This document shows positions 55,095 to 55,298 of a DNA stretch of 64,000 bases, in pieces. Numbering within the stretch: position 1 is the first letter of the stretch; each line of letters begins with the position of its first letter. A program made the translations under genes and the position numbers. The notes under the pieces were generated by a model. It ran no database searches, was not told the origin of the DNA, and was given only the letters and a program-made list of their open reading frames with translations. Where the stretch lies: assembly GCA_018822665.1 (NCBI GenBank), contig JAHJJX010000019.1, positions 124,001 through 188,000 of the forward strand, read 5' to 3'. The stretch comes from a bacterium. Its GTDB lineage: Bacteria; Campylobacterota; Campylobacteria; Campylobacterales; Sulfurimonadaceae.

Positions 55095-55298
55095 ATTTAT
55101 CCTATTTATTTTATGACTTGAATTATATATGAATGAAGTTAAACTAACTATAAATATATTTCAAAAATTAATTTTTGCTCCATAGAGATGCCGTTTCATG
55201 TAAGCTAGTTTAAAAACAAAAAGATATCTTTTTCATAAACTTCAGTGGCGCAACTTATTTCCACATGCCTGAAATATCATGGCATGTGGAATAAAATT
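55095..55298. other. Intergenic region with inverted word pair
   Basis: This 204 bp gap has the adk promoter at its left (TATATATG-like AT-rich stretch near 55125) and the inverted pair of 11 bp words at 55259-55291. I see no gene. Confidence 0.45.
55259..55291. repeat. Perfect inverted pair of the word, hairpin-forming
   Basis: TTCCACATGCC (55259-55269) and GGCATGTGGAA (55281-55291) are exact inverted copies with an 11-base spacer. The hairpin starts 8 bp after the stop of the minus-strand gene at 55299, the position of a terminator. A T run is not evident. Confidence 0.88.

Follow-up and report, generated by a model that had tools for sequence, protein, structure and literature searches.

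The inverted pair and its neighbouring genes

The window, i.e. the whole 64-kb stretch of DNA analysed here, belongs to a probable Sulfurimonas genome (G000) of 44 contigs and 2,507,095 bases, which is 99.99% complete. Between a gene for a small acidic protein and an adenylate kinase-like gene (adk), both on the minus strand, it carries two facing copies of a short word, (T)TGGCATGTGGAA (Table 1). The region of the pair reads ...aacttatTTCCACATGCCtgaaatatcatGGCATGTGGAAtaaaattttag..., and both 11-base arms are perfect. The facing arms and the 11-base spacer described in the first-pass annotation are present in the sequence as claimed, and the distance of 8 bp which it gave from the stop codon of the acidic protein gene was right to within one base, as this gene stops at 55299, 7 bases off the right arm.

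RNA folding of the hairpin on the strand of the 55299 gene gave -25 kcal/mol (z = about -5.0). An A/T-rich promoter-like stretch upstream of adk is common to relatives, but the hairpin is not, and no inverted pair was found upstream of adk at the orthologous locus in the word-rich genomes G024, G095 and G066.

Table 1. Coordinates of the word copies and of the neighbouring genes in the window
Feature	Position	Strand	Basis
Exact word copy, direct pair with 6248 copy	6216..6226	+	word scan
Exact word copy, direct pair with 6216 copy	6248..6258	+	word scan
Exact word copy	15701..15711	+	word scan
Exact word copy	27810..27820	+	word scan
Exact word copy	32152..32162	+	word scan
Exact word copy	32575..32585	-	word scan
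Exact word copy	37452..37462	+	word scan
Exact word copy	37608..37618	-	word scan
Exact word copy	38794..38804	+	word scan
Exact word copy	43839..43849	+	word scan
Exact word copy	48532..48542	-	word scan
Exact word copy	48736..48746	+	word scan
Exact word copy within RecN-like gene (peptide RHVEL)	50016..50026	-	word scan, ORF reading
Exact word copy within NAD kinase-like gene (peptide LACG)	51541..51551	-	word scan, ORF reading
Adenylate kinase-like gene (adk), downstream of hairpin	54447..55094	-	ORF reading, locus comparison
Left arm, word copy TTCCACATGCC	55259..55269	-	sequence, word scan
Inverted pair: 11-bp stem, 11-nt spacer; RNA hairpin without U-tract on either side	55259..55291	.	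sequence, RNA folding, flank count
Right arm, word copy GGCATGTGGAA	55281..55291	+	sequence, word scan
98-aa acidic protein gene, stop 7 bases from hairpin	55299..55595	-	ORF reading, locus comparison
Exact word copy within ankyrin-repeat ORF	59702..59712	-	word scan, ORF reading
Exact word copy directly past stop of dapD-like gene 59915-61114	61124..61134	+	word scan, ORF reading

Abundance and placement of the word

The window holds 18 exact copies of the word. Allowing at most one mismatch, 26 matches were found where 0.62 were expected, and none of 100 shuffles scored as high. The whole genome has 662 exact copies, 328 on the plus and 334 on the minus strand, while the reversed word used as a control occurs once. 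In a 464-kb sample the word was the top over-represented 9-, 10- and 11-mer, the 11-mer being present 113 times against 0.14 expected from a Markov model. One short word is thus extremely over-represented in a strand-symmetric manner, as is characteristic of uptake sequences. The sequence logo is sharp across the 11 bases GGCATGTGGAA, with a weak yTT extension on the 5' side, and flat beyond; because the flanks are flat outside the logo, each copy is a site of its own rather than a piece of some longer repeat.

Most placement statistics were obtained from samples of 464-547 kb and from 29 pair loci, and the percentages are approximate because genes were called by a simple longest-ORF rule. About 70% of the copies in the 464-kb sample (80/113) are coding, in all six frames, and encode peptides that recur in the proteins, for example FPHAK and LACG. 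The intergenic copies (31/113) have a density approximately five times that of coding DNA and lie mainly near stop codons, convergent spacers being the richest and divergent spacers the poorest. The strands of the copies alternate without runs (70 plus and 64 minus in 400 kb). Within this 400-kb stretch the largest word-free gap is 29.7 kb, the expected maximum being approximately 14.6 kb. It is found at positions 179968-209663 of contig C20 and has WYL-, ArdC-, nuclease-, nucleotidyltransferase- and helicase-type genes, as named from reading the sequence. With these mobile-element-type genes the gap appears typical of an acquired defence-type island. The word therefore shows the placement looked for in an uptake sequence, i.e. 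in coding as well as non-coding DNA, denser in spacers and depleted in acquired islands, one island having been examined.

Inverted pairs and termination

Counting inverted pairs with spacers of 0-25 in the whole genome gave approximately 20 in the orientation of the 55259-55291 pair and 21 in the opposite one. From the strand counts and a genome of 2.507 Mb approximately 1.1 are expected by chance per orientation, roughly 17-fold fewer, and the pair consequently belongs to a significant class. The situation in which no other inverted pairs exist, which would have spoken against the first-pass annotation, does not apply. Its proposed check, that pairs with less than 20 bp of spacing cluster downstream of stop codons, turned out positive for spacers of 0-25: a stop codon lies at -30 to +45 nt in 24 of the 29 inverted pairs examined. 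Among unpaired words this holds for 15 of 93, and for random positions the share is 7.6%. Stops on both sides, i.e. convergent genes, were found for 11 of the 29.

These numbers bear on a second use of the word, concerning approximately 12% of the copies, in which the inverted pairs would be intrinsic terminators or hairpins stabilising the 3' end, and selection at the RNA level would keep the configuration. Location right after stops and enrichment between convergent genes are what intrinsic terminators should show; the excess over chance in each inverted orientation, the stable RNA fold and the scarcity of direct pairs (2 against 9 inverted in 547 kb) point in the same direction. However, the T-tract that should follow the hairpin is absent: pair flanks have on average 2.24 T per 8 nt against a genome expectation of 2.6, and at least 5 T in 8 nt occurs in just 4 of 58 flanks. 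Neither is there a preferred orientation in the genome (20 versus 21), whereas the orientation giving a T-tail is the favoured one among the pairs of Neisseria and most Pasteurellaceae (PMC1852404). Unpaired intergenic words, too, favour stop codons (12/16 against 20% of random intergenic positions), and the hairpin is not retained at the orthologous locus. A simple scan of the region gave no excess of classical terminators, so the hairpins may have a non-canonical function.

With the U-tract absent, the orientations equal and the pair missing at this locus in three word-bearing genomes, the label 'terminator' is unproven for the inverted pairs, and classical U-tract termination at the word hairpins is not supported. 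Of the proposal that inverted pairs double as terminators, the location at gene ends stands; the missing T-tract, the lack of orientation bias and the absence of the pair at the locus in G024, G095 and G066 count against the rest. Selection for a terminator or stabiliser is a real possibility, falling somewhat short of even.

Distribution within Sulfurimonas

The distribution was followed with the 9-base core GGCATGTGG in 135 Sulfurimonas genomes, and most genomes compared are MAGs. Approximately 11 genomes have 400-1400 copies and approximately 8 have 50-230, the remainder being near background (0-27). Every sampled Campylobacterales genome outside Sulfurimonas has at most five exact copies of the word, which is chance level. 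Nearly all database records that bear the pair come from bins of Sulfurimonas, Sulfuricurvum or Helicobacteraceae/Campylobacterales, and the window is therefore probably from a Sulfurimonas as GTDB defines the genus. A pair scan of 2.9 million viral contigs found no match, which is weak evidence. One bin labelled Bacillota (L069) also has a word pair, and is probably a misassigned Sulfurimonas contig.

Two genomes, G054 and G095, use a dialect, GGCATGTGGR, with G or A at position 10; G stands there in 37-47% of their sites compared to 0-6% in the other word-rich genomes. G052 shows the dialect as well, on few sites. Lineage restriction together with dialects, both found here, is a further property of uptake sequences.

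Word-rich and word-poor genomes are intermixed in a tree of AspRS. Resolution is low in this tree and in that of comEC, both of which include long partial rows, and the two disagree in part. Genomes G004 and G000 fall together in the AspRS tree and not in the comEC tree.

Relic genomes and competence genes

Some genomes hold decayed relics of the word. Per 100 kb, G132 has 2.5 exact copies and 15 with one mismatch, against an expectation of 1.5 for the latter, and its mismatches are spread over the word; the values for G000 are 25.5 exact and 18.5 one-mismatch copies per 100 kb, with mismatches at the tolerant end. The pattern in G132 is what drift after lost selection predicts. A relic copy is found at the same position of the AspRS region in G066, G067 and G123, which makes contamination unlikely.

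Two kinds of search found no ComEC match in G132, where an assembly gap is possible. The comEC gene of G067 is split into two parts approximately 8 kb apart (L269:4716-14119) by a Tn7-like insertion. The insert starts with a gene for a TnsA-like endonuclease (PF08722), and its further cargo includes a radical SAM protein and a prepilin-like gene. No match to its FimT-like prepilin was found among the other loci compared. In the sister genome G066, comEC is intact and the core occurs 1427 times. Since at least five relics (G026, G117, G123, G131 and G108) keep a full-length comEC, loss of comEC accounts for just two relics.

G000 has both ComEC and DprA, as do word-poor Sulfurimonas. The word occurs inside comEC at matching codons across word-rich species (LACG at approximately 19, PHA at approximately 86-92 and one at approximately 390-405) and is absent from comEC of the word-poor species compared. 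Apart from its usual dprA gene on contig C4, G000 has a second, divergent DprA-like gene at C41:29890-30483, and G004 has a comEC-like fragment of 150 residues (C1:970140-970583) apart from its intact comEC.

Nine or ten prepilin-like genes were found in G000. By presence and absence, no prepilin of clusters C24 and C26 could be tied to the word, and the cluster at C24:53.9-60 kb occurs in word-poor G008 too. The type II secretion secretin of C26 was discarded as an indicator of this system; its pattern does not follow the word, since G054 and G095 have no close copy, while relics do.

A candidate DNA uptake sequence

The statistics and placement of the word, its lineage restriction, the dialect, the relics and the competence genes are, taken together, best explained by an uptake sequence, and we consider (T)TGGCATGTGGAA a likely candidate for the DNA uptake sequence of a Sulfurimonas species group. 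The abundance, logo, strand symmetry, placement, phylogenetic restriction, dialect, relics, word-free island and the presence of ComEC and DprA were read directly from the genomes. The likeness to uptake sequences proposed in the first-pass annotation is borne out by this genome-wide anatomy (abundance, both strands, placement, lineage restriction, relics and island); the half of the claim concerning terminators is not.

From the same data we infer a receptor, an uptake bias and a function of the hairpin. The word on extracellular DNA would be bound at the cell surface by a component of the competence pilus or pseudopilus, word-bearing DNA would preferentially enter via the ComEC channel, and DprA and RecA would recombine the imported DNA. 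Biased uptake followed by recombination could then accumulate the word wherever coding permits, on both strands and densest in the spacers at gene ends. Two facing copies observed at a gene end would form an RNA hairpin, which may affect the 3' end of the mRNA.

Other readings of the word were weighed against the uptake sequence. A motif like Chi, KOPS or matS, which an intracellular protein recognises for chromosome maintenance or recombination, would fit hundreds of mostly intragenic copies over the whole chromosome. Chi and KOPS are strand-skewed, though, and here strand polarity is absent; the confinement to a subset of one genus, the relics with drifted copies, the word-free island and the enrichment of inverted pairs at gene ends also argue against such a motif, which we regard as unlikely. 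A short and sharp motif could equally be the site of a regulatory protein or of DNA modification (a regulon, an orphan methyltransferase or a restriction system). This is very unlikely, given that 662 copies far exceed a regulon and that the word is mostly coding, in all frames, and poorest at divergent promoters; restriction sites are typically avoided rather than enriched. Intergenic palindromic pairs do look like REP-type elements, but most copies are single and intragenic, and the flat flanks, with no information past the word, rule out a dispersed repeat (REP- or MITE-like) for most copies. Shuffles and the Markov model give approximately 0.1 copies for chance composition, and we consider a dispersed repeat or chance highly improbable.

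Comparison with known uptake systems

The uptake sequence (DUS) of Neisseriaceae is GCCGTCTGAA, with dialects, and its receptor is the minor pilin ComP. It shares with the Sulfurimonas word a length of 10-12 bp, hundreds to thousands of copies per genome on both strands, lineage dialects and a concentration of inverted pairs in convergent spacers (PMC3630211, PMC1852404). In contrast, the Sulfurimonas word is unrelated in sequence, belongs to another phylum, is present in approximately 660 copies and forms pairs without T-tails or a favoured orientation. Among the prepilin-like genes and the secretin compared, no ComP-like receptor for it was identified.

Pasteurellaceae use the uptake signal sequences (USS) AAGTGCGGT and ACAAGCGGT, with PpdA/ComN as predicted receptor. 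A genome-wide self word, a softer extended flank and inverted pairs at gene ends are common to USS and the Sulfurimonas word, which is again unrelated and from another phylum. The A/T-rich extensions of USS make T-tails in +- pairs (PMC1852404); unlike USS, the Sulfurimonas word has no such extensions.

As in the Campylobacterota transformers (Cts/ComEC of C. jejuni, and Aliarcobacter), ComEC, DprA, prepilins and type II secretion-like genes are present. We know of no uptake word in the natural transformation of C. jejuni or Aliarcobacter; C. jejuni discriminates DNA by methylation.

No report testing transformation or uptake sequences in Sulfurimonas was found in the open-licence literature, and a search for the word itself gave unrelated primer-type matches only. 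Discrimination of this kind is known only from Neisseriaceae and Pasteurellaceae (PMC12616744), and, as far as the open-licence literature goes, the Sulfurimonas word would therefore be a new case, unrelated to these two and in a different phylum. If true, this would be an independent case of uptake tags in a free-living, sulfur-oxidising lineage, and such tags would not be bound to host-associated mucosal bacteria. Word-rich, dialect, relic and word-poor species would together form a natural experiment on the gain, change and loss of specificity, and comparison of dialects would allow a search for the receptor.

A wider reading, put forward tentatively and less likely than not, is that sequence-specific uptake has a third evolutionary origin in Campylobacterota, with switching of words within the genus. 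The word GGCATGTGGA, the GGCATGTGGR mixture and possibly the palindrome described below would then be alternative tags of one system by which Sulfurimonas is divided among mating groups, and the relics would show to which group a genome once belonged.

Other over-represented words

A palindrome, TACATGTA, exceeds expectation 9- to 20-fold, with 20-35 mostly intragenic copies per 100 kb, in small samples from the word-poor genomes G008 (L191, L192), G002 (L187) and G015 (L195, L196). In the relic G131 (L352, L353) it reaches 21 per 100 kb (9 seen, 1.0 expected), and it is near background in all word-rich genomes. CATGT is common to TACATGTA and the word, and TACATGTA may be an alternative tag. 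Samples of 20-40 kb from word-poor genomes gave no strong non-palindromic word. In genome G034 (L201, L202), CGGCTTCTGC was seen 9x and CCGCGAGAAT 6x in 40 kb, which suggests a separate short repeat family.
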